Source: Melioribacter roseus
GTDB taxonomy: Bacteria; Bacteroidota; Ignavibacteria; Ignavibacteriales; Melioribacteraceae
NCBI GenBank assembly: GCA_020723165.1
Contig: DYJK01000009.1
Span: 1-56,555, forward strand
Direction: 5' to 3'
Length of the DNA: 56,555 bases
The notes under the pieces were generated by a model. The model ran no database searches and was not told the DNA's origin. It saw only the letters and a program-made list of their open reading frames with translations. The position numbers and the translations under genes were made by a program. Position 1 is the first letter of the stretch. Each line of letters opens with the position of its first letter. This document shows positions 9,428-56,442 of the stretch, one piece after another.

Positions 9428-10807
9428 ATGGGCGGCAAAGGTATAATATTAATTGTGTTAGGATTCAGCATTATTTTCCTCGTTATCGGGCATAATTTCG
9501 GGAATTTATCCGGAAGAGCAGTTGATAACGAAACTAAATATTATGTTGAAACCACAGCACATAATATTGCAGTAACCGGTGCAAATATGGCTGCAAATGA
9601 AATATTTATGGATAAACTTTGGGATGATGGATATTCAAACGTAAGTTTTTCAGGTGGAATAATAAATGTGTATGTAAGCAATACTACCGGGGGCTCAACC
9701 GGTAAAGTTAAAATTTGCCACATTCCTCCCGGCGGAAGCGATGGATACACACTAGAAATTGCAAGTAGTGCTGTTCCCGCCCATTTAGCTCACGGTGATT
9801 ACCTTGGTGAATGTGGAGGCGGAGGTTACATCCCTCAAATAGCTACAATAATTTCTGAAGGTACTTATAACGGTGTAACAAAAACTGTTGTAGTTGAACT
9901 ACGCCCGAGTAATTTCGCTAAGTTCGGAAATTTTTATAGCTCAATAAGCGCTTACCCGGCTACCGGGGATACCTTTAATGGGCCTTTCCATGTTAATGCA
10001 AGACTAACTACTTACGGTACGCCGGTATTTTGGGGTAAGGTTACAAGCAAAAACGGTTTAACAAAATTAGGCAGTCCAAAAGATCCAAAATTTTATGGCG
10101 GATTTGAGGATGGTGTTGATATTCCCCTTGAATTTGATACTGCCGGACTTAGAAGTAATGCAGATATTATTTTTAAAGATACAACCGGGAATGGATATAA
10201 AATAGATGTTCAACTTTATTTTAATGCTGATGGAACCATTACACACAGTCAATCAATAAATAGCGGGAGCTGGTCTGCACCACAAACTGAGAATATATCT
10301 ACACTTGCACCAAATGGAATTATTTATGTCGAAAAAGGAAATGTTTATACAAAAGGAACTGTTAACGGCTCTTTAACAATTGTTGCAACTAAGCTGGGAA
10401 AAAACGGCTGCGGCAATGTTTATTTTGAAGATAATATTACTTATAAAGATAACCCGGTTACAACACCAAGTTCTGATGATATGCTTGGTATAGTTGCCGA
10501 AGAAAATATCAGGATTAAAGATAATGCAACCACACGTGGAAAGAATATCTATACCCAGGCATCTATGTTTTCTCAAAACGGAAATATTGGTCCGGAAGAT
10601 GGTTTGGTTTCACAAGACTTTTTAGGTAACTGGAATATATTAGGCGGCCTGATCGCAAAAACAACACGTGTCACTGCAACATATTCCGGCAGTACGCCGG
10701 TAAAAGGATTAAGGTTTGTACATACTTACGATGAGAGATTTCTAATTAAAGTTCCCCCGGCTTTTCCACACACAAAAAACTTTGAAGTTGTTTCCTGGTA
10801 CGAGTAA
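9428..10807 (+). CDS. PilX-like large surface protein with Cys/His insert (paralogue 1)
   Basis: The 459-residue protein has an N-terminal helix starting almost at the initiator (MGGKGIILIVLGFSIIFLVIG), then AHNIAVTGANMAANEIF, which resembles the PilX segment where pilin helices are packed. Residues 97-129 form an insert with Cys97-His98, IPPG, His119, His122, GD and Cys129. The rest is a long beta-rich region with many glycines that ends FEVVSWYE. Its paralogue follows directly. Together with the two genes upstream it looks like a pilin-type cluster without a standard leader. It is probably exported and anchored by the helix; the exact role is unknown. Confidence 0.55.
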   Translation: MGGKGIILIVLGFSIIFLVIGHNFGNLSGRAVDNETKYYVETTAHNIAVTGANMAANEIFMDKLWDDGYSNVSFSGGIINVYVSNTTGGSTGKVKICHIPPGGSDGYTLEIASSAVPAHLAHGDYLGECGGGGYIPQIATIISEGTYNGVTKTVVVELRPSNFAKFGNFYSSISAYPATGDTFNGPFHVNARLTTYGTPVFWGKVTSKNGLTKLGSPKDPKFYGGFEDGVDIPLEFDTAGLRSNADIIFKDTTGNGYKIDVQLYFNADGTITHSQSINSGSWSAPQTENISTLAPNGIIYVEKGNVYTKGTVNGSLTIVATKLGKNGCGNVYFEDNITYKDNPVTTPSSDDMLGIVAEENIRIKDNATTRGKNIYTQASMFSQNGNIGPEDGLVSQDFLGNWNILGGLIAKTTRVTATYSGSTPVKGLRFVHTYDERFLIKVPPAFPHTKNFEVVSWYE

Positions 10808-10899: not shown

Positions 10900-12285
10900 T
10901 TGGGCGGAAAAGCTGCAATATTATTAGTCCTCGGCTTCAGTATGATATTTTTAATATTTGGTCACAACTTCTCTAATTTATCTACACGAGCAGTAGATAA
11001 TATGACCGACTATTATGCCGAAACTCAAGCGTTCAATATTGCAAATGCCGGCGCTAATATAGCGGCAAATCAAATTTTTATGGATAGAACCTGGGACGAT
11101 GGTTATACAAATCTTAGTTTTGGTGGAGGCACGATTAATGTTTTCGTAACAAATAACGTAGGCGGCACCACCGGTAAAGTAGTTATATGTCATATTCCTC
11201 CCGGTAATCCAGATGCACAACATACAATGAATATCTCGGGCAGTGCACTTGCAGCACATTTAGCTCATGGTGATTATGTTGGGCCATGCGGCGGAGGTGC
11301 AACCTATAATGACCAAATAGCTACCATTATTTCTGAAGGAACATACAACAATGTTACCAAAACAATTATAGTAGAACTGCAGCCAAGTAATTTTGCAAAA
11401 TTTGGAAATTACTACTCAACAATTAGTGCCTACCCGGCAACGGGTGATGTTTTTAATGGACCGTTTCATACCAATGGAAGACTAACGACTTATGGTACAC
11501 CCATTTTCAATGGAAAAGTAACAACACGTAATGGATTGAGAAAATTAGGCAGTCCACCCGATCCTCAATTTTTGGGTGGGTATGAAGACGGCGTTGATGT
11601 TCCTCTTGAATTTGATACTACCGGTTTAAGATCAAGCTCCGATCTCACTTTCCGCGGTACATCAAGTCCGAGCAGAGGTATTGACGTACGACTTTATTTT
11701 AATGATGATGGAACTTTAACATACAGCTCCAAAGCCGAAGGTGCTGGAAGCTGGACTGCAGAACAAACAGTATCGTTAGGTTCTCTTACCAATGGTGTTA
11801 TCTATGTTGAAAAAGGAAATATTTATACTAAAGGAACTGTAAATGGTGCTGTTACAATTGTAGCTACTAAAAAGGGCCGTACCGGTTTTGGAAATGTCTA
11901 CCAGGAAGATAATTTACAATACCACGATAATCCTTTAACTGAAGAAGATTCGGATGATATGCTTGGAATTGTTGCCGAAGAAAATGTACGCATTGATGAT
12001 AATGTCAATACACGGGGAAAAGACATTACTACACAAGCTTCGATGTTTGCAATGAATGGAAATATTGGTCCGGAAGACGGTTTAGTTTCACAAAGTTTTT
12101 TAGGCGACTGGAACATTTTGGGCGGCTTAATTGCCAGCACAACACGCGTTACCGCACAATATTCAGGCAGCACACCAGTTAGAGGATTAAGATTTATACA
12201 CACCTACGATCAGAGATTTTTAGTAAACGTACCGCCGTCATTTCCACATACAAGAAATTTTGAAGTAGTCTCGTGGTACGAATAA
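10900..12285 (+). CDS. PilX-like large surface protein with Cys/His insert (paralogue 2)
   Basis: This 461-residue protein is a close duplicate of the preceding gene product along its whole length. They share the N-terminal helix, the AFNIANAGANIAANQIF segment, the insert with Cys97-His98, His120, His123 and Cys130, and the FEVVSWYE end. The start is TTG, chosen by alignment with the paralogue and by AAAGGA upstream. Duplication has kept both reading frames intact, so both copies are probably used. The stop codon directly abuts the stop of the convergent epimerase-like gene, leaving no space for a terminator. The function is unknown; a pilin-like or surface structural role is inferred. Confidence 0.55.
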   Translation: MGGKAAILLVLGFSMIFLIFGHNFSNLSTRAVDNMTDYYAETQAFNIANAGANIAANQIFMDRTWDDGYTNLSFGGGTINVFVTNNVGGTTGKVVICHIPPGNPDAQHTMNISGSALAAHLAHGDYVGPCGGGATYNDQIATIISEGTYNNVTKTIIVELQPSNFAKFGNYYSTISAYPATGDVFNGPFHTNGRLTTYGTPIFNGKVTTRNGLRKLGSPPDPQFLGGYEDGVDVPLEFDTTGLRSSSDLTFRGTSSPSRGIDVRLYFNDDGTLTYSSKAEGAGSWTAEQTVSLGSLTNGVIYVEKGNIYTKGTVNGAVTIVATKKGRTGFGNVYQEDNLQYHDNPLTEEDSDDMLGIVAEENVRIDDNVNTRGKDITTQASMFAMNGNIGPEDGLVSQSFLGDWNILGGLIASTTRVTAQYSGSTPVRGLRFIHTYDQRFLVNVPPSFPHTRNFEVVSWYE

Positions 12286-44646: not shown

Positions 44647-44672
44647 TTAATTCACGCAACAAGCTAATATTA
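44647..44672. repeat. 3'-end conserved block, copy 1
   Basis: A 26-base block at the 3' end of the small-subunit gene (core TTCACGCAACAAGCTA) closely matches one at 52955-52980 at the 3' end of the SulP gene (core TTCACACAACAAGTTA). Both end at a minus-strand stop codon. Confidence 0.5.
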
Positions 44673-45419
44673 CTTTTTATCCAGCCAATCAATTAAACCA
44701 TTGATGAATGTAAGCGGGTGCGGAGGGCAGCCGGGAATGTATAGATCAATTTTGTTTTCTTCGAGGAATTTTCTTTCAATCTCTTTTGATTCCTTAAATA
44801 TTCCCCCTGAAATTGCACAAGCACCAAAGAGTATAATTATTTTGGGATTAGGCACCGCTTCAAAACAAATCTCGTTTGCTCTTGCCATGTTTTTTGTAAT
44901 AGGTCCGGTAATTACAATTCCATCAGCGTGCCGGGGTGAAGCAACAAACTCAATTCCAAACCGCCCCATATCAAAGTTAACATTACTCAATGCATTCAAT
45001 TCAAGTTCGCAGCCATTACAGCCGCCGGCTGAAACCTGGCGCAGCTTTAATGACTTCCCAAAATATTTTATGATTTTTTCGGACGCCTTTTCCGGGGTAA
45101 TATACTTCGTATCCTTAGTTACTGTAAGTTGTTCGCGTGTACTTGCAGATAAATGACAATCATTTGAAAAATGAATTATTTTTTCGGGGCAGCTCTCTTC
45201 ACAAAGCGGACAAAAAACGCACAAGCCCAAATCAATACTAACCGGATTAGTTGTTATTGCATTTGTCGGACAGACCTCAGCACATTTTTTACATCCGTCC
45301 GCGCAAACTTTATCATCAATAATTGGCAGTCCGCGAAATAATGGAGGCAGTGAAGCATTCCTCACATCATGCACAACCGGATCGCGTTGAAGTATTCTAA
45401 CTTTTATTGCGTCTTTCAT
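44670..45419 (-). CDS. Ehr complex small subunit fused to ferredoxin domain (HycG/NuoB-like)
   Basis: The 249-residue protein joins a HycF/HyfH-like part with two 4Fe-4S motifs (CADGCKKCAEVCP and CVFCPLCEESCP) to a HycG/NuoB-like domain. The proximal cluster Cys are intact in GGCNGCELE, FGACAISGG and PGCPPHP. It carries electrons to the large-subunit interface. In the first ferredoxin motif Cys1 and Cys2 are spaced by three residues rather than two. It is the last gene of the Ehr operon, 27 bases after the large-subunit gene. The NuoB-like domain is certain; the electron partner is not known. Confidence 0.92.
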   Translation of the reverse strand: MKDAIKVRILQRDPVVHDVRNASLPPLFRGLPIIDDKVCADGCKKCAEVCPTNAITTNPVSIDLGLCVFCPLCEESCPEKIIHFSNDCHLSASTREQLTVTKDTKYITPEKASEKIIKYFGKSLKLRQVSAGGCNGCELELNALSNVNFDMGRFGIEFVASPRHADGIVITGPITKNMARANEICFEAVPNPKIIILFGACAISGGIFKESKEIERKFLEENKIDLYIPGCPPHPLTFINGLIDWLDKK

Positions 45420-45446
45420 ATAAGATTAATTCTACCATTTTTCAAC

Positions 45447-46925
45447 TTAGAGATCATGCCCGGCATAAGATAAATCAAAACTTTTATTGCATAATGGAAA
45501 ATCCGAAATGGCTGTTTTTCTTAAAGCCAAACTTAATCCGTACCAATTATTGAATGACGGATCTTTAATTTTATAATGAGAAAGATTTCCTTCATCATTG
45601 GTAAACACAGTGTGAACAATTTCACCGCGCCATCCTTCAACTATTGCAATTACTCCCTGGTTCGATTCTACATTACCAAAGTTGGTTTTGATTTCTCCAT
45701 CCGGGAGATTTTCCAATTGATCGATTACAAATCTCAACGATTCATCAATTTCCATTGCACGTAAACGAGCGCGCGAAAAAACATCTCCCCCGGATAAATT
45801 AATTAACGACACCGGACTGTACCGGTAAGCACCATAAGGAAAATGAATTCGGGCATCTTCTTCAATTCCGCAAGAGCGCGCAGCTAAACCAACCAATCCA
45901 ACTTGAGCTGCTAATTCATTTTGAACGACGCCCGTGTTTTCAAACCGGGCTAAAGCACCAATTGACGAGAACAAATATTGATTTACCGCTTCTACATCGT
46001 CCCGAACAATTTGCAGATTGTTGAGTATACTGTTTACCATCTCATCATTAAGATCAAATCGAACGCCGCCGTAAACAAATAAACCGCGCCCAAACCTCGA
46101 ACCGCATATTAAAGCTAAACTATTTATTACAAGTGTACGCAATCTTCCGTATGAAGAAGCCACAAGCGAAAATCCAATATCATTTGCTACCCCTCCTAAT
46201 CCCGTTAAATGCATTGCAGCTCTCTCAATTTCTTCTGCTATGGAGCGAATCACTTGTGCGCGTAAACTAATTTGCGTTTTGCTCAAACTTTCGATGGCGC
46301 TGCAATGAGCATAGGAATGACCAATCACTGTATCGCCGGCAATTGATTCTGCGAGAACAATACTCTGCGATGAATTTGATTTCAGCAGCAACTTCTCAAT
46401 CCCTCTATGCTGATACCCTAAATTTATTTCCAGGTTATAAACTAATTCACCATGGCATTGAAATCTAAAATGCCCCGGTTCAATAACACCGGCGTGAATA
46501 GGACCGACCGCAACTTCATGAATTTCTTCGCCATCAATTTTATAGAATTGATACGGCTTATTTCCAGAAATCATATTTTGTTTTCTAACCGGTCTAAGCC
46601 AGGGGTGATTCAACAGCATGTAACCATGGTTCTCTGCAAGTTCACACTCAAAATAATTAGTCTGGGGAAATAGATTTGCGAAACTTTCGAATTTAAGATC
46701 GTTTTTATCAAACACACCGCCGGTTAAATGAATCATTGAAGATCTTGCATCGGCAAGAATCGAAATAAGTTTCTCCGGTTCGTCATTATTAAGCGGCGTT
46801 AATCCTATCATTCTATAACCACACACCATACCTTCCAGAACAGAATTTCTAAAGTCTTCCTTCGATAAAAAAGGAATAACGCTTAAATCGAATGATTGAT
46901 TATTCTGAACTTCCAGCGATATCAT
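45447..46925 (-). CDS. Ehr complex large subunit (HycE/HyfG-like) lacking NiFe cysteines
   Basis: The 492-residue protein has a NuoC-like N-terminal part (about 1-110) and a NuoD/HycE-like body (EVAVGPIHAGVIEPGHFRF, LEINLGYQHRGIEKL). A normal group 4 hydrogenase has two CxxC pairs. Here the first reads ESIAGDTVIGHS (Ala196, Thr199) and the C-terminal one reads DLSYAGHD (Ser486, Gly489), so all four NiFe ligands are missing. It cannot bind a NiFe centre by the known chemistry and is better placed with Ehr/complex I-like proteins. It overlaps the antiporter-like gene upstream by four bases. Confidence 0.93.
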   Translation of the reverse strand: MISLEVQNNQSFDLSVIPFLSKEDFRNSVLEGMVCGYRMIGLTPLNNDEPEKLISILADARSSMIHLTGGVFDKNDLKFESFANLFPQTNYFECELAENHGYMLLNHPWLRPVRKQNMISGNKPYQFYKIDGEEIHEVAVGPIHAGVIEPGHFRFQCHGELVYNLEINLGYQHRGIEKLLLKSNSSQSIVLAESIAGDTVIGHSYAHCSAIESLSKTQISLRAQVIRSIAEEIERAAMHLTGLGGVANDIGFSLVASSYGRLRTLVINSLALICGSRFGRGLFVYGGVRFDLNDEMVNSILNNLQIVRDDVEAVNQYLFSSIGALARFENTGVVQNELAAQVGLVGLAARSCGIEEDARIHFPYGAYRYSPVSLINLSGGDVFSRARLRAMEIDESLRFVIDQLENLPDGEIKTNFGNVESNQGVIAIVEGWRGEIVHTVFTNDEGNLSHYKIKDPSFNNWYGLSLALRKTAISDFPLCNKSFDLSYAGHDL

Positions 46926-48376
46926 AAATTCATTCCGAAATCTTTTGTAACATTGATAATATTCTGATAAATAACATCAGGAGATATAACCGCAATTACT
47001 GTTAGAAGGATTAAGAGCAGAATAACCGATAGATGGATAAACTCAAAACGTTCGGTACCGGCTTCCAATTGATCATTCTCGCCTTTTTTGTAAAGCATGG
47101 TAAAAATTATTTTGCCCATATTTATGAAAATAAAAAGGAGGAAAAACATTGAAGCAAAAAGTATCACCGGTTTGTCTGAAAATAGAAGCCCTTCAAATAT
47201 TTTTATCTCGCTGAAAAAAATTCCGAAAGGAGGTATTCCTGAAATAGCAAAGAATGAGAGAAGGAAAAGCCAGCCGGTTATCGGCATTGTCCTTAATGCC
47301 GAGGTAACATTTGAAACTTCTCTTGATTTATATCTGCTGTGGATATTTCCGGCGGTTAAAAACAAAACCACTTTAGTTATTGAATTATAAATTGCATGAT
47401 ACATTGCCCCTACAAAAGCCAGACCTCCCACACCGATTCCAAGCGTGATCAATCCTAAATGCTCAACACTTGAATAAGCGAGCATCCTTTTATAATTGTT
47501 AACTTTGAACATAAATACAAACGCAACAAATAGTGAAAGCAGCCCGCCGATAATTAAGATTATTTTTGCAAATTCATACGAAGAAGTCGGACGAATAATT
47601 TGTAATATTCTTAAAACACCTATCAAAGAAGTAAGGCGGAGTGATCCGGACATTAAAGCAGCAACGGGACTTGGCGCATTACTAGTTGCATCTATATCAC
47701 CGGAGTGCATCGGTGCAATTCCTATTTTAGTACTCAAGCCGGCAAAAATGAAAATGAAACTTGCCTTTAGCCAAATGGGGTTGAGTTCTTTAGCATTCTT
47801 TATAAATTCCCAAAAGAACAATTGCTTTCCTTCAAGCAAAGAACCTTTTGCCGAAAGTGTTAAGAATAGTATACCAATGAATGCAAATGCAATTCCAACC
47901 GATACAAGGAACAAATATTTCCACATTGCTTCAAGTGCTTCTTCATTACGGTAGTAAAAAATCAAAGGCGCTACACTTAGTGTCGTTGCTTCTGCGGCAA
48001 CCCAGTACATTCCGAAATGGTTGCTGAGCATTGCCGCTGAGTTGGCGGTTAAATAAAAATTCAAAAGGAGAAAATAGTATTTCTTACCTTCCTGGGCTTT
48101 GGAAGTAACCGGCCGTTTTAAATATGAGAACGAAACCAGTACAACCCAGAAATAAACATTTGAAAGTATCAAAAGAAAAAATTTGCTGAGTGAATCCACA
48201 CTGAAGAAAAAGGGTAAGTCTGCATGATAATACCCCAGGAATACGCTAAGCGATAATACCAAATGCAAGATACTTACGCCGAGGGAAACGGAGTATTGTA
48301 CGCGGAGATTCCTTATATAATAACAGAATATCGAACTGATTAAAGGCAGCAATATGAAAATAAAAAACTCGAACAT
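46922..48376 (-). CDS. Ehr complex antiporter-like subunit (HyfF-like)
   Basis: The 484-residue protein has about 13 or 14 membrane segments and the Mrp/NuoL-N motifs KRMLAYSSVEHLGLI and MYHAIYNSITKVVLFL. The Lys and Glu in these helices belong to the proton path. It is expected to translocate H+ or Na+ when the complex turns over. The order relative to HyfE-like and large-subunit genes is that of the E. coli hyf operon. It overlaps its neighbours by one and four bases. Confidence 0.9.
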   Translation of the reverse strand: MFEFFIFILLPLISSIFCYYIRNLRVQYSVSLGVSILHLVLSLSVFLGYYHADLPFFFSVDSLSKFFLLILSNVYFWVVLVSFSYLKRPVTSKAQEGKKYYFLLLNFYLTANSAAMLSNHFGMYWVAAEATTLSVAPLIFYYRNEEALEAMWKYLFLVSVGIAFAFIGILFLTLSAKGSLLEGKQLFFWEFIKNAKELNPIWLKASFIFIFAGLSTKIGIAPMHSGDIDATSNAPSPVAALMSGSLRLTSLIGVLRILQIIRPTSSYEFAKIILIIGGLLSLFVAFVFMFKVNNYKRMLAYSSVEHLGLITLGIGVGGLAFVGAMYHAIYNSITKVVLFLTAGNIHSRYKSREVSNVTSALRTMPITGWLFLLSFFAISGIPPFGIFFSEIKIFEGLLFSDKPVILFASMFFLLFIFINMGKIIFTMLYKKGENDQLEAGTERFEFIHLSVILLLILLTVIAVISPDVIYQNIINVTKDFGMNL

Positions 48377-49008
48377 TAATCTTTCAACCTCCCGAGTGCA
48401 GTTACATCAAATCCTTTTAGTGTAGAACTGATATTGTTTAATGCTATTCCCATCAGGAAAACTACAACAAATACATCGAGCAGAATTCCTAATTCGATCA
48501 TCATCGGCAATTCGGAAGCAACGGCAGTGCCAAACAGAAAGATCCCGTTTTCTAATATTAAAAATCCGGCTACATGAACAATCAATTTTTTCCTGAACAT
48601 AATTATATAAATGCCGATTACGATTGCAGAAAAACCGCTTGCAAAAGGAATCACGTTCAATTCTGTTCTCTGCGAAAGAATATTGGAGACCACAAATATT
48701 ACAACCATAGAAACAATAACAAGAAGTAAAAAAGTAAATTGTTGTATCGTCGGTTCTATCATTCTTTTAATATCAAGATCGAGTATAATCTTTTTTATGT
48801 ACTTGGGTATAAGAAACACTTTTACAACAAGCAAAGTAACCGGGAGGATTATACCGAAAATTGAAAAGTCATAAATAAATGGAATTACAATTATTACCGA
48901 TAATAATAATCCTTGCAGTTGAAGAACAGTTACATACCCTTTTACTCTTGAGGAAATTGAGACATAAAAAAGCGATAGACAAAAAAGTATGCTTAAAACA
49001 TTTTCCAT
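48376..49008 (-). CDS. Ehr complex membrane subunit (HyfE-like)
   Basis: The 210-residue protein has about six membrane segments. Its gene lies between the HyfF-like and NuoH-like genes, where HyfE lies in hydrogenase-4 operons. FRKKLIVHVAGFLILENGIFLFG recalls the NuoK-like part of HyfE. It probably forms part of the membrane arm, related to NuoK or MnhC. The call depends on both sequence and gene order. Confidence 0.85.
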   Translation of the reverse strand: MENVLSILFCLSLFYVSISSRVKGYVTVLQLQGLLLSVIIVIPFIYDFSIFGIILPVTLLVVKVFLIPKYIKKIILDLDIKRMIEPTIQQFTFLLLVIVSMVVIFVVSNILSQRTELNVIPFASGFSAIVIGIYIIMFRKKLIVHVAGFLILENGIFLFGTAVASELPMMIELGILLDVFVVVFLMGIALNNISSTLKGFDVTALGRLKD

Positions 49009-49015
49009 AAACAGC

Positions 49016-49939
49016 TCATTTTGTAAAAGTATAAATCAACAAGTTCAATATCCCGATTGCAGTAGCAAACAAAAGGTATTGCGGAATGTTCTTCATTTTG
49101 AACCGGGAAGTAATGGTTTCAACAGTTGCCAAAGTCAAAGCAAGTATAAAACTGCCTATTACAAATATCATAACACCAACTAAATAGCTTTGTGCGCTGA
49201 AGGGATAGAAAAAAGATATTTCGAGAATTGCATAGATAAATAGTTTAATGTAACCCGAATACTGGTAAAGGAATAAATCAATACCGGAATTATCAAGAAT
49301 CATCACCTCGTGGATCATCGTGAGTTCAAGATGTGTGTTGGGATCATCAACCGGCATGCGCGAACATTCGGTTACAGCAAGTAAAAAAGCCGAGATCGAG
49401 CAAATAACTATAAACACGATATACGAAATATTGTTTAGCTGGATTGAATAATATATATCATAAATAGAACTCAACCCGCTTATAAAAGCCACGCTTCCGA
49501 GGGTAAAAAAGAAAATTGGTTCTGCAAACAATGCAAATGTTGCTTCGCGTGCTGCACCCATTCCTTCGAATGAACTGCCAATATCCATTGCCGCCAGAAT
49601 CTGGATGAATCTAGCAAGTCCCAATATGTAGGCAAATAATATTATGTCTCCGTTAAAACTAATTAGCGGTTTCCAAAAACCAATAGGAAGCATAGTAGCA
49701 GCAACAGCAACGGTAACAAAATTTATTACCGGTGAAATTCTACTTACAAAAGAAGAGACAGTTGCATTAATAGTTTCTTTTTTAAAGAGACGTTTTAGAT
49801 CATAGTATGGCTGCCAGACCGGTGCACCGATTCTTCCGGTTAGAACGGCTTTAAGTTTGTTGATCAGCCCGGCAAATAAAGGAGAGAAACCTAAAATGAT
49901 CAATAAAGAAATTATACCTTGTAATATTTCTATTTCCAT
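49016..49939 (-). CDS. Ehr complex NuoH-like subunit (HyfC/HycD-like)
   Basis: The 307-residue protein has about eight membrane segments and NuoH-family motifs: KAVLTGRIGAPVWQPYYDL, ECSRMPVDDPNTHLEL and HEVMILDNSG. This subunit links the soluble catalytic part to the membrane arm. The start overlaps the end of the upstream HyfB-like gene by 10 bases. The acidic residues near the ECSRMP loop that couple electron transfer to ion movement are present. Confidence 0.92.
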   Translation of the reverse strand: MEIEILQGIISLLIILGFSPLFAGLINKLKAVLTGRIGAPVWQPYYDLKRLFKKETINATVSSFVSRISPVINFVTVAVAATMLPIGFWKPLISFNGDIILFAYILGLARFIQILAAMDIGSSFEGMGAAREATFALFAEPIFFFTLGSVAFISGLSSIYDIYYSIQLNNISYIVFIVICSISAFLLAVTECSRMPVDDPNTHLELTMIHEVMILDNSGIDLFLYQYSGYIKLFIYAILEISFFYPFSAQSYLVGVMIFVIGSFILALTLATVETITSRFKMKNIPQYLLFATAIGILNLLIYTFTK

Positions 49940-51915
49940 AAAAACGCAATTATACCATAGACAGTTATAATTATTAATATAAACCCTATGTAATACCTAA
50001 TATCGGTTTGGCTCAAGAATTCAATTTTAGAAATTATTTTTTTTAGAAATCCATACAACGGCAATACTATTTTATTATCGACAAAATCTTGCGAGTGACT
50101 TTCAAAAGCGGTTTGTTTGGGAAACGCACCTTTGGAAATCTCAACTTTTTTATGATACACTAAAATTGTTTTAGGTATGATATTGAGTTCGTCTGCAAAT
50201 GAAGAAGCTGTGTATTGCATCCGGGGTGTGATATTTTCATAACCGCAGCCCCAAGTTGCCGAGGTTCTTCTTCCATATTTTTTTTGAATTTTAACTTTTA
50301 CAAAATATAAAACAACAGCACTAAGCAAGATGGCCGAGAATATTAATGTAAGCGATAACCAATTCATGCCTATCAATGCAGAAGAATCTGCCGAGACAAA
50401 ACCACTACCGATTACTTTATTAACAATTCCGATAAAGATACGCGGATAAAATCCAATTGCGATACAAAGCAGCGATAAAATACCGAGCGATATATAATCA
50501 TAAACCGAAGTATGAAAATGCTTTATTTCTTTTCTTTCGGTTCCTAAAAAAATAATCGAGTTGATTTTTGTAAAACAAGCAACAGCTAATCCGCCTACAA
50601 ACGCCAATCCTACAACAAATATCAGCATAATAAACGGGTAATAATTTTTTAATTCTTTTGCAGCCTGGAAAAATCCATTATAAATAATGAATTCCGAAAC
50701 AAACCCGTTAAATGGCGGAATGCCGCTGATTGCAACCGAACCAATAAGAAAAAATATTGCCAGGTATTTTGCGCGGTGAACAATTCCACCCATCAGTTCA
50801 ATATTTCTTGTACCTAAGTTATTAGAAATTACTCCGCTCCCAAGAAACAACAAACTTTTGAATATTGCATGATTCAAAGTATGTAGCAGCGCACCGCCGA
50901 ATCCCAATACTTCTAGAGCCGGTATTTTATTTGCCGAGCCGATAAACCCGATACCGATGCCAATCCCGATGATTCCAATGTTTTCAACGGAATGATATGC
51001 AAGCAGACGTTTAATATCATGTTGTGCAAGTGCATACCACACGCCAAATATTGCACTTAGAATACTTATCACTAAAACTACCCATCCGCACCATTCCGGT
51101 ATTGGATTCAAAAATTGAAATGTCCTTAATATGCCGTATATACCGGTTTTAATAATCACCCCGGAAAGAAAAGCACTTAATACTGTAGGTGCTATCGGAT
51201 GAGCTTGTGGCAGCCAAAAATGGAAAGGCATAAATCCGGCTTTTATTCCGAAACCGATAAACGACAAAATGAATAATATAGGGAGAGTATTTCTTAATGT
51301 TAACGAAACGTGATAATCGCTCAAGAACCAACTGTTGGTTTGATGATGAAGTAAAAAGAAAAAAATGTATATAACAAACACTATAACATGAGATGCCACT
51401 AAATAATAAAAACTTCCTTTATGTACTTCTTCTTTTTCTCTTTCCAGTATCATCCCGAGATATGCCGACATGCTCATTACTTCCCAGCTAACCAAAAAAA
51501 GTATTGCCTGGTTGGCTATTACTATAAATTGAGTTGAGACGAGAAGAACAGTATAAGATATTACAAAACTCTTTATTGGTCTTTCCTGGTCAATATAATG
51601 CTGGAGATAAGAGAAATTAAAAATGGTTGTAGGAATTGCAACGAGCTGAATAATAAATAAAAAAAAGAGTCCCAGCCCGTCAAGGCGAATCCAATTATCA
51701 AAAAGGAGTGTATCGTTTATAAGCTGTGAGGACGAAAAAAGCGATGAGGATAAGGTTGAGATTAACCCAATTACTAATCCGATCAATAAAATAATGTTCG
51801 AGGTTAAGAAAAATTTACGTTCACTTCTTATAAAAGCAACCGGGATAAGTGCCGAAAGCTGTATTACAAATGCAGCTATAAATAAAACATTACCGGAGTT
51901 TAATAATCCGTTCAT
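49930..51915 (-). CDS. Ehr complex large antiporter-like subunit (HyfB/HycC-like)
   Basis: The 661-residue protein has about 16 membrane segments. Characteristic stretches are SWEVMSMSAYLGMIL, HPIAPTVLSAFLSGVIIKTG, KRLLAYHSVENIGIIGIG and HTLNHAIFKSLLFLGSG. The C-terminal WGCGYENITPRMQYTASSF tail is typical of HyfB/HycC proteins. It probably pumps ions. Together with HyfF the complex has two antiporter-like units; a HyfD-like gene is absent. It overlaps the EIIA gene by four bases. Confidence 0.93.
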   Translation of the reverse strand: MNGLLNSGNVLFIAAFVIQLSALIPVAFIRSERKFFLTSNIILLIGLVIGLISTLSSSLFSSSQLINDTLLFDNWIRLDGLGLFFLFIIQLVAIPTTIFNFSYLQHYIDQERPIKSFVISYTVLLVSTQFIVIANQAILFLVSWEVMSMSAYLGMILEREKEEVHKGSFYYLVASHVIVFVIYIFFFLLHHQTNSWFLSDYHVSLTLRNTLPILFILSFIGFGIKAGFMPFHFWLPQAHPIAPTVLSAFLSGVIIKTGIYGILRTFQFLNPIPEWCGWVVLVISILSAIFGVWYALAQHDIKRLLAYHSVENIGIIGIGIGIGFIGSANKIPALEVLGFGGALLHTLNHAIFKSLLFLGSGVISNNLGTRNIELMGGIVHRAKYLAIFFLIGSVAISGIPPFNGFVSEFIIYNGFFQAAKELKNYYPFIMLIFVVGLAFVGGLAVACFTKINSIIFLGTERKEIKHFHTSVYDYISLGILSLLCIAIGFYPRIFIGIVNKVIGSGFVSADSSALIGMNWLSLTLIFSAILLSAVVLYFVKVKIQKKYGRRTSATWGCGYENITPRMQYTASSFADELNIIPKTILVYHKKVEISKGAFPKQTAFESHSQDFVDNKIVLPLYGFLKKIISKIEFLSQTDIRYYIGFILIIITVYGIIAFLWK

Positions 51916-54758: not shown

Positions 54759-54786
54759 ATAAAAAAGCCGCCACAATGGACGGCTT
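54759..54786 (-). terminator. Intrinsic terminator of split-Soret cytochrome operon
   Basis: On the minus strand, AAGCCGTC pairs with GGCGGCTT (8 bp, one G-U) around a short loop, followed by six T. It lies 18 bases after the cytochrome stop codon and separates it from SulP. Confidence 0.85.
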
Positions 54787-54803: not shown

Positions 54804-55925
54804 TTACTTAACTAAGTTCATTTTTCTTGTTAGTTGGAATGTACCGGCATTCATTCTTACAAAGTAAATACCACTTGAGACTTTATTACTAAAGCTATCT
54901 GTTCCATTCCAATCAACTGTATATTTACCGGGATTCAATAGATCGTGATCGACCAATTTTTTAACTTCCTGGCCAGTAATATCATAAACAATAACAGATA
55001 CTTTTTCAGTACGTGGTATTGCGAATTGTATTTTTGTAGAAGGATTAAACGGATTAGGATAATTCTGAGTAAGTTCGTGTTCATCCGGAATAGCCGGGTC
55101 CTCTTGTACTAAACCGGAAACATGTGGATCACCATGACAAGGTAGACAATTCATTTGAGTCATAACATTATTAAACACTGCAGAACCATGGCAAGTTAAA
55201 CACTGTGCAGCATCTGGATCAGTAACGTATGTTGATTGGAAAGTTTGAGCAAAGTGAGCGTTTAATATTTCAGCAGTCTTTGCCGCTACATCTCCGGCAA
55301 GACGTGCGCATCTTTCTTTTCTTTCAGTATCACTTACTTTTTTATCAGCTATACGACACCACTGTGATACTGAAGCATGGCATAATACACTACCACTTAT
55401 ACTTTGCGGTAATGCCCCTTGATACTTTACATCTTGGTATTTTCCATCAATTGACGCTTGATTAGCAGCATTAGATGGTAATTCTTGTGCCGAAGCATAA
55501 CCCCAAACTTCGTTAATAAGTTTTCCAGAATCTGCTTTTGAGGTAACAAGACTTATTATTGCAGCCGCACCATTAACAGTACCGCATAATGTACCCCATC
55601 CATTGCCGCCGCCTCGTCCAAAAAGCATTACTTCTATAGGCATACCACTCCATGGATCGGGCATTGATTCCGTAAGAGCTTCTACAAAAGCACCGAATAC
55701 ACCTGAAGCACAATCTTTATCACTCCAATATAAATGATGGGCCTTTAACCTAACAACTTCCGGGTCCAACGTTGTATAAGGCCACGGCCAAGCTGTAGAT
55801 TTACTATTTGCCAAAATTTTTCCACCGGCAAGAGCATTCAATCCGACGACACCGGCAACGGCTCCTACAGCATATTTTGAAGTACTTGTTAAAAATTCCT
55901 TTCTGTCAATTTTTTTCCCTTCCAT
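54804..55925 (-). CDS. Split-Soret-type dihaem cytochrome with T9SS sorting domain
   Basis: The 373-residue protein starts with a Tat-like signal (DRKEFLTSTSKYAVGAVAGVVG, but RK not RR). Residues about 50-215 fit the C_GCAxxG_C_C family: WPWPY, Cys72, FGRGGGNGWGTLCG (Cys114), LCHASVSQWC (Cys182, Cys190), Cys206. Two haem c sites follow, CLTCH (242-246) and CLPCH (260-264). Residues about 285-373 are a T9SS type A sorting domain (NYPNPFNPST, KVSSGIYFVRM). It is therefore likely a surface redox protein. Split-Soret relatives also bind an Fe-S cluster, suggesting folded export. Confidence 0.85.
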   Translation of the reverse strand: MEGKKIDRKEFLTSTSKYAVGAVAGVVGLNALAGGKILANSKSTAWPWPYTTLDPEVVRLKAHHLYWSDKDCASGVFGAFVEALTESMPDPWSGMPIEVMLFGRGGGNGWGTLCGTVNGAAAIISLVTSKADSGKLINEVWGYASAQELPSNAANQASIDGKYQDVKYQGALPQSISGSVLCHASVSQWCRIADKKVSDTERKERCARLAGDVAAKTAEILNAHFAQTFQSTYVTDPDAAQCLTCHGSAVFNNVMTQMNCLPCHGDPHVSGLVQEDPAIPDEHELTQNYPNPFNPSTKIQFAIPRTEKVSVIVYDITGQEVKKLVDHDLLNPGKYTVDWNGTDSFSNKVSSGIYFVRMNAGTFQLTRKMNLVK

Positions 55926-55929
55926 ATTG

Positions 55930-56367
55930 TTACTCCGTACGATTAGTTTGATTACACGATTTGTTTAATTTATTCAGTATAAAACGAACATCATCATTTA
56001 CTGGCAGTTTTGAAAAATATTTGATCGAAGTTGATAGATCACAATAAAGCCATAATATTCCCAGAGCTATGTTTCTTTCGTTTGTATCTTCGGCTTCCAG
56101 TGTATTTTCTAATTCATAAATTATTTCCGGGCATGGACAATCATCCAGTATTGGATCTGTATTAATAATAATGTCTATATCTTCATTAATTAGCTGGATA
56201 AAGAGTTTAAGAGCTTTATCAAGCCGGTTAGTTTTCAGGTAACATATGATAAGTTTTTTTCGAATTGACTTATTAAAAAGATCTTTATTCAGGGCTTCTT
56301 CCAATTCGGTCAAAGCTTCGCAAAACTTCCTTGCTAAAAAATATTGATTGCCTAACATTTCGCTCAT
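55930..56367 (-). CDS. TPR-like protein, probable first gene of cytochrome operon
   Basis: The 145-residue protein is mostly helical with TPR-like repeats: FLARKFCEALTELEEALNKD, LIICYLKTNRLDKALKLF and NIALGILWLYCDLSTSIKYF. The middle contains DDCPCPE, a small acidic Cys pair of unknown role. No signal peptide is evident. It is four bases upstream of the cytochrome gene and so may help its maturation or folding. AAGGAG lies 18 bases before the ATG, rather far. Two similar 18-base motifs lie upstream at 56443-56512. Confidence 0.6.
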   Translation of the reverse strand: MSEMLGNQYFLARKFCEALTELEEALNKDLFNKSIRKKLIICYLKTNRLDKALKLFIQLINEDIDIIINTDPILDDCPCPEIIYELENTLEAEDTNERNIALGILWLYCDLSTSIKYFSKLPVNDDVRFILNKLNKSCNQTNRTE

Positions 56368-56442
56368 GTTATAAACGGTACAAACTCCTTGCCATTTTAT
56401 AAGGTGTGTTTTAAAGTAGTATTTAGCTTCAGCAAGAACACA

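Follow-up and report, generated by a model that had tools for sequence, protein, structure and literature searches.

The cytochrome gene and its surroundings

Near one end of the window, by which we mean the whole 56,555-nucleotide stretch of DNA analysed here, a compact series of features on the minus strand surrounds the gene of a dihaem cytochrome that combines a Tat-like leader, a split-Soret-like core and a C-terminal T9SS sorting domain:

56379..56394, minus strand: sigma-54-type -24/-12 promoter-like site, TGGCAAGGAGTTTGTA (the best site in 25 of 25 loci)
55930..56367, minus strand: TPR-like protein of 145 aa with a CPCPE motif, co-directional and ending 4 bp before the cytochrome (TPR_19 match; position in relatives)
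54804..55925, minus strand: T9SS-tailed split-Soret-like dihaem cytochrome, 373 aa, ATG start (open reading frame; sequence and fold match to PDB 1h21)
55809..55925, minus strand: Tat-like leader, residues about 1-39 (putative cleavage site), with an IDRKEFLT motif and an Ala/Gly-rich h-region (alignment of 25 leaders; composition against 84 cargo leaders)
55221..55793, minus strand: split-Soret core, residues 45-235, with C72, C114, C182, C206 and mostly C190 (profile, sequence and fold comparison)
55188..55202, minus strand: haem-binding motif 1, CLTCH, residues 242-246 (sequence; 64 of 64 aligned rows)
55134..55148, minus strand: haem-binding motif 2, CLPCH, residues 260-264 (sequence; 64 of 64 aligned rows)
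54804..55076, minus strand: T9SS type A C-terminal sorting domain, residues 284-373 plus the stop codon (TIGR04183, PF18962; CTD-like fold)
54765..54786, minus strand: intrinsic terminator-like hairpin 3' of the cytochrome

A split-Soret-like core with two haem motifs

An earlier note on this DNA had read the protein as a split-Soret cytochrome, and this identity was borne out by comparison with the split-Soret cytochrome c of Desulfovibrio desulfuricans ATCC 27774 (PDB 1h21), which matches residues 45-266 with an E value of 2.1e-31 by sequence and of 2.1e-52 when a profile of 28 aligned sequences is used. The AlphaFold2 model of the cytochrome (mean pLDDT 74.4, pTM 0.59, with values below 50 in the leader, in residues 105-111 and in short stretches near the haem motifs) shares the core fold of 1h21 (Foldseek E 1.7e-13; Z 26.1, rmsd 2.9 over 201 residues). 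Cysteines of 1h21 align with C72, C114, C182, C190 and C206 of the cytochrome and, like the cytochrome, 1h21 carries two CxxCH motifs near the C-terminal end; its chain of 247 residues, however, stops shortly past them and is devoid of a T9SS tail. Split-Soret cytochromes are characterized by an Fe-S centre, a split Soret band and haems that are stacked in the dimer.

The C_GCAxxG_C_C cysteines of the earlier note are likewise recognized by Pfam (PF09719, residues 72-220, 46.1 bits for a cut-off of 27), though the literal GCAxxG string is absent from the cytochrome, where TLCGTVNG occupies that place, and the two CxxCH motifs it had seen are the CLTCH and CLPCH listed above. PF09719, a redox family, is matched by all 28 of the aligned members; here the domain is combined with a leader, with a T9SS tail and with a dihaem stretch. 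The cytochrome falls under the cut-offs of the split-Soret equivalog NF047622 of NCBIfam (152.9 bits for a cut-off of 400) and of the narrower TIGR01909 (31.8 for 47.4), and we therefore term it split-Soret-like rather than filing it as an equivalog.

Conservation across the class

Of the 391 genomes of the class, 65 contain the split-Soret core. We read 66 loci from 64 of these genomes (the partial match of G332 was left out) and all 66 have two CxxCH motifs and keep the T9SS tail, which a pattern recognizes in 65 of them and which is present as a variant in L040; these are related T9SS-tailed proteins of the kind that the earlier note had proposed to look for. In an alignment of 64 rows, which contains one duplicate pair (L003 and L013, whose proteins are identical in start, length and score) and from which a motif filter had dropped L037, L040 and L045, both CxxCH motifs are conserved in every row, as are C114, C182 and C206; C72 is found in 63 rows, the last one having a gap, and C190 in 58. 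Given this conservation, the motifs of the cytochrome are not due to chance.

At the scale of the phylum, 26 of 395 sampled genomes match and every one belongs to the same class, the number of the 395 that lie outside the class not being stated. Four plasmid records match, through the tail only. We conclude that the association of a split-Soret-like cytochrome with an RK-type Tat-like leader and a T9SS tail is a real, conserved and lineage-specific variant; the combination is new within what was searched, and each of its parts is of a known kind.

Promoter-like site, TPR gene and terminator-like hairpin

The TPR-like protein matches TPR_19 with 24 bits (4.8e-05), just below the cut-off of 25. 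Its gene occupies the same position in 25 loci, and in 23 of them a PAS/sigma-54 activator precedes it, which gives the conserved gene order activator, -24/-12 promoter-like site, TPR gene, cytochrome. The activators that are readable in full contain a Cys-rich PAS stretch. When we took the best -24/-12 site within 140 nt upstream, it fell at -41..-34 from the ML.N codon in all 25 loci, which are related, and its mean score reached 9.84 out of 13, compared with 6.55 (sd 0.17) in 300 dinucleotide shuffles. In the window, the site departs from the consensus by a GT in place of GC. The predicted transcript start lies about at the first ATG, and the transcript may thus be almost leaderless (56365-56394). 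Promoters of the sigma-70 type are not in excess (8 found for 7.7 expected), and Rfam gave no match in the window. The hairpin located 3' of the cytochrome is one of three such sites in the region, for 1.2 expected; the downstream sulphate-permease-like gene, as read from the ORF list, is therefore probably separate.

In the TPR-like protein itself, C39, the CPC pair (74-76) and C106 are kept in 23-25 of 25 relatives, a pattern suggesting that this small cytoplasmic protein has a site for a metal or for redox chemistry. For a specific role of this protein as dedicated chaperone of the cytochrome we see no support, since a paralogue occurs in a multihaem cluster (contig C35) and since MarR or ArsR genes take that place in other families.

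An arsenic and thiol neighbourhood

Beyond the TPR gene, in the upstream direction, the contig of the window continues for 188 bp. When the window is read in reverse, its opening 55 bases are identical to the final 55 of another contig, C69, pointing to a putative join (C69/C82). At this end of C69 lies the second-best match to the L003 activator (56% identity), the best one being on C35. The genes of C69 (locus L225) follow each other in one direction:

ArsR (65.5 bits, cut-off 55)
arsenite methyltransferase, ArsM (347 bits, cut-off 263)
ArsC-type reductase (131.5 bits, under the cut-off of 174.3)
oxidoreductase-like ORF
Acr3 (467 bits, cut-off 282.8)
ArsE-type thioredoxin (98 bits, cut-off 62)
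thioredoxin with a hydrophobic leader
CcdA/DsbD-type protein, same direction, before the activator
activator

Through this join the Acr3, ArsC, ArsM and ArsR genes of an arsenic-resistance island would lie upstream of the cytochrome and on the same strand. The gene order in relatives supports the join. Indeed, among 20 of the 66 loci, selected for high identity and for room upstream and read over 6 kb in that direction, activator and TPR gene are both found in 18, and CcdA, thioredoxin and ArsE together in 9; L213 has CcdA alone, and a thioredoxin-CcdA pair is absent within 6 kb from 11 of the 20.

Acr3 is encoded in 18 of the 21 genomes searched (the 20 extended ones and that of the window), as a single copy, G086 alone having an additional weak match. 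Nine of the 18 carry it upstream of the cytochrome, on the same strand and within about 10 kb (G000, by the join, G019, G066, G130, G169, G177, G277, G293 and G327); it is about 16 kb off in G029 and elsewhere in eight. With the three genomes that have none, and the 16-kb case counted as far, Acr3 is far or absent in 12 of the 21. The nine linked genomes fall in three families and are related, and thus do not represent independent events. In some loci of other families, ArsR or MarR precedes the cytochrome, and ArsR, ArsE, ArsF, ArsG or ArsP-like genes follow it.

These neighbours allow the tentative proposal, which we see as possible, that the cytochrome belongs to an arsenic-detoxification island as its outermost redox component, where it would donate electrons to arsenicals or recycle the thiols used against them. 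The run from ArsR to the activator that meets the window by the 55-bp overlap, the close Acr3 genes of three families and the Ars-type neighbours of other families all point in this direction. However, the distant or missing Acr3 of the remaining genomes does not, the 21 genomes were picked from 65 for high identity and upstream room, and it is the activator, not ArsR, that seems to drive the cytochrome gene in this order. Moreover, neighbourhood is not function, and the relatedness of the nine genomes lessens their weight.

The sorting tail and the export machinery

The tail of the cytochrome passes the curated cut-offs of both T9SS models (35.7 bits for a cut-off of 23 with TIGR04183, and 32.9 for 27 with PF18962), in agreement with the type A sorting tail of the earlier note. 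When the last 90 residues of the model were compared with T9SS C-terminal domains, we obtained Z values of 10.3 for PorU, 8.8 for PorZ and 8.2 for mirolase, a level that many other beta-sandwiches also reach. That the tail is a chance Ig-like domain is excluded by these cut-offs and by its presence in all 66 loci. PorU, PorZ and mirolase, as T9SS type A cargo, possess a C-terminal beta-sandwich sorting domain as the cytochrome does; they carry Sec leaders.

Is the corresponding machinery present? Our answer rests on SprA, the PorV family and the PorU-type C25 peptidase. The genome encodes one SprA_N match (2e-52), 22 PorV-family matches, of which 14 are over the cut-off, and one PorU-type Peptidase_C25 (1.6e-90), whose tailed frame on contig C18 stops shortly ahead of the best PorV match. 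The core genes whose absence the earlier note had named as contrary to its reading are thus in the genome, together with 108 T9SS tails and a single TatC (4e-67). The split-Soret homologue of Desulfovibrio alaskensis has been described as periplasmic (PMC4215793), whereas the cytochrome studied here bears a T9SS tail.

The leader and the inner-membrane route

How does the cytochrome leave the cytoplasm? Its leader, MEGKKIDRKEFLTSTSKYAVGAVAGVVGLNALAGGKILA, has RK and not RR. Sixty-three leaders are readable among the 66 loci, and RKxFL is found in 60 of them, the others having KR (L040), RH (L072) and RQ (L045); consecutive twin arginines (S-R-R-x-F-L-K) occur in none of the 63. In the 25 aligned leaders R8, K9, F11 and L12 are invariant. 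The three unreadable leaders are L071, cut at a contig end, L076, split in frame, and L046, where a stop codon lies in frame within an otherwise typical RKQF leader, either through a nonsense change or through an assembly error. When the whole genome was scanned with TIGR01409, a Tat model, up to an E value of 10, nine places were listed, the cytochrome leader not among them, and all nine listed leaders use RR.

We compared the leader with those of other T9SS cargo from the same genome, using 100 of its 107 other tail regions (five very short frames, one frame already taken and one further were left out). The start rule favours hydrophobic leaders, and it yielded 84 complete ones, the other 16 regions having no usable leader (11 run to a contig edge and 5 are without such a leader). 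In the best 15-residue stretch, Ile/Leu/Phe amount to 13% in the cytochrome and to a mean of 58% in the cargo leaders, none of the 84 being lower, and Ala/Gly to 53% and 7%, respectively, none of the 84 being higher. By plain hydropathy, 13 of the 84 are lower than the cytochrome leader, and the separation therefore rests on composition, not on hydropathy. Compared with these 84 leaders, which look Sec-type, the cytochrome h-region looks Tat-like, rich in Ala/Gly and poor in Leu/Ile/Phe. None of the 84 contains RKxFL. Six have RR or RK within the first 20 residues (L101, L107, L126, L132, L137 and L168), the nearest to RKxFL being the MRKLFYL of L137, and all six continue into a strongly hydrophobic stretch.

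A search of the genome with a profile of the leader returned, besides the cytochrome, four weak matches, of which two read as real starts: TRKEFL in a metallo-beta-lactamase-fold protein (L221, E 0.15) and DRKEFL, together with a possible lipobox, in a Rieske protein (PF00355; L223, E 1.45). The frames of the other two matches (E 1.1 and 7.6) are 21 and 65 aa long. Rieske proteins belong to the classical cargo of Tat. A Lys or Arg is present in 59 of 60 proteins between 12 residues past the motif and the WPxPY with which the core starts, a stretch that may include mature residues; such a basic residue may serve Sec avoidance.

In E. coli, Tat leaders accept lysine poorly as a substitute for arginine, and a more hydrophobic h-region can restore the export of leaders with damaged twin arginines (PMC7317946). 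The h-region hydropathy (KD15) is 1.91 in the cytochrome and 1.73 on average in the family (61 rows), for 1.15-1.53 in five RR leaders of the genome, that is, a shift in the same direction as the E. coli rescue. In TatC, Y100 and E103 contact the second arginine (PMC13323110); aligned to the solved TatC 4hts, the host TatC keeps an acidic residue and has a lysine at the position that we take for Y100.

The cytochrome resembles Tat-exported Fe-S/Mo proteins in being a cofactor protein with an RxxFL-type motif and an Ala/Gly-rich leader. It differs from them in having RK, as do 60 of the 63 leaders, where they have RR, and in the onward step to the cell surface that it would make through the T9SS. 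No T9SS cargo with a Tat leader was found in the literature searched, which included parts of PMC9251779, PMC9127263 and PMC7073777, the first of which gives Sec as the inner-membrane route of T9SS substrates.

This statement, together with the lack of RR in the family, the omission of the leader by TIGR01409, whose listed leaders are all RR, and the poor tolerance of lysine in E. coli, could be taken to mean that the leader is a Sec signal of an unusual kind. Export would then concern the unfolded apo-protein, as with other c-type cytochromes and T9SS cargo, the haems and any Fe-S centre would be added outside the cytoplasm, and RKxFL would be retained for another reason, such as a dedicated chaperone. 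We consider this rather unlikely, as the composition of the h-region lies beyond the range of the 84 Sec-looking cargo leaders and as the R, K, F and L positions show no variation among 25 aligned leaders whereas Sec requires no such motif (PMC7317946). DRKEFL in the Rieske protein of the same genome, and the Lys/Arg past the motif insofar as it serves Sec avoidance and is not mature sequence, also speak against it. The RK-type Tat-like leader of the earlier note holds, through RKxFL in 60 of 63 leaders and an outlying composition, and the clear Sec signal without an Fe-S-type site that it had regarded as damaging did not appear, the leader being Tat-like and the cysteines conserved. For the Tat-plus-T9SS route as such, judged from sequence, the case is supported but unproven, because RK is badly accepted in E. 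coli and because TIGR01409 passes over this leader and finds RR in the nine it lists.

Extracellular electron transfer or metalloid and thiol redox

The earlier note had also suggested a part in extracellular electron transfer. In that case, respiration would reach minerals or other cells by a porin-cytochrome route with the cytochrome as its terminal on the surface, which appears rather improbable to us. The genome does hold a second, paralogous activator/TPR pair, on contig C35, clustered with proteins of 4, 14, 7 and 10 CxxCH motifs and with a barrel-like protein (L227), as well as a T9SS-tailed protein with nine CxxCH. Furthermore, a split-Soret cytochrome of Pyrodictium delaneyi was found under ferrihydrite and nitrate alike, its abundance not being differential (PMC8105010). 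However, the cytochrome has only two haem motifs, and no multihaem gene stands beside it, in the window or on C69. Nor is there, next to the gene in the window or on C69, an operon that would unite a porin with multihaem cytochromes as a conduit does, such a cluster being on C35. In addition, split-Soret mutants of Desulfovibrio alaskensis were without phenotype in the energy conditions tested (PMC4215793). In D. desulfuricans, expression of the split-Soret cytochrome is higher on nitrate than on sulphate (cited in PMC5701242) and lower with NO (PMC5701242). No paper on the T9SS with multihaem cytochromes or with extracellular electron transfer was found in the literature searched.

The proposal of the earlier note thus finds an echo in the multihaem cluster of the paralogous pair, but not in the direct neighbours of the cytochrome, which are arsenic and thiol redox genes; its interpretation overall is partly supported. 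Given this neighbourhood and the Acr3 linkage, a metalloid or thiol redox role seems at least as likely as mineral respiration or other extracellular electron transfer.

Two loci of the same genome deserve mention in their own right. The cluster on C35 (L227, 948-9610) comprises the 4-, 14-, 7- and 10-CxxCH proteins, the barrel-like protein, which has no Pfam match, and the activator and TPR paralogues. On C2, the T9SS-tailed protein with nine CxxCH (L126 / L226:6992-9061) has 689 aa and is a surface multihaem candidate; its leader starts with MTRRLTT and contains RR, but has a strongly hydrophobic h-region and was read as Sec-type.

A proposed course of events

Here, we show at the sequence level the architecture of the cytochrome, its conservation, the promoter-like site and the neighbourhood. 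The account that we favour, and hold to be reasonably probable, is that of a redox protein assembled in stages, from sigma-54 activation through folded Tat export, periplasmic haem attachment and T9SS surface display to the delivery of electrons to an outside acceptor. The PAS/sigma-54 activator, encoded upstream (here across the putative contig join), would switch on the -24/-12 promoter and hence the TPR and cytochrome genes. Folding of the split-Soret core about its conserved cysteines, probably with an Fe-S centre, would take place in the cytoplasm, and the folded core would exit by Tat through its RK-type variant leader. Haem would be joined, presumably in the periplasm, to the two CxxCH motifs that lie between core and tail, after which the C-terminal domain would pass the cytochrome to PorV, SprA and PorU for the crossing of the outer membrane. 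At the cell surface, it could relay low-potential electrons between the cell's respiratory or thiol chains and an acceptor outside, for which the neighbouring genes would favour arsenic, another metalloid or an oxidised thiol.

A wider claim, which we regard as unlikely when taken as a whole, is that this two-tag route is used across the class: a natural RK-type Tat signal would feed the T9SS and bring a protein with cytoplasmic Fe-S and periplasmic haem to the outer surface, as the outermost redox part of a sigma-54-controlled arsenic and thiol island. If it were true, a conserved Tat-type cargo would imply that the T9SS can accept proteins folded with their cofactor in the cytoplasm, and the limits of the twin-arginine rule could be probed in a natural example. 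The arsenic neighbourhood also provides the split-Soret family with a testable condition, namely expression and phenotype under arsenic.

Other genes of the window

Elsewhere in the window, a run of minus-strand genes (44670-51915) reads from the ORF list like the membrane complex of a group 4 hydrogenase or of a formate-hydrogenlyase, with proton-pump-like subunits, a large-subunit-like protein and an Fe-S small-subunit-like protein. The same list contains two adjacent and very similar ORFs of 459 and 461 aa (9428-10807 and 10900-12285), an apparent tandem duplication.
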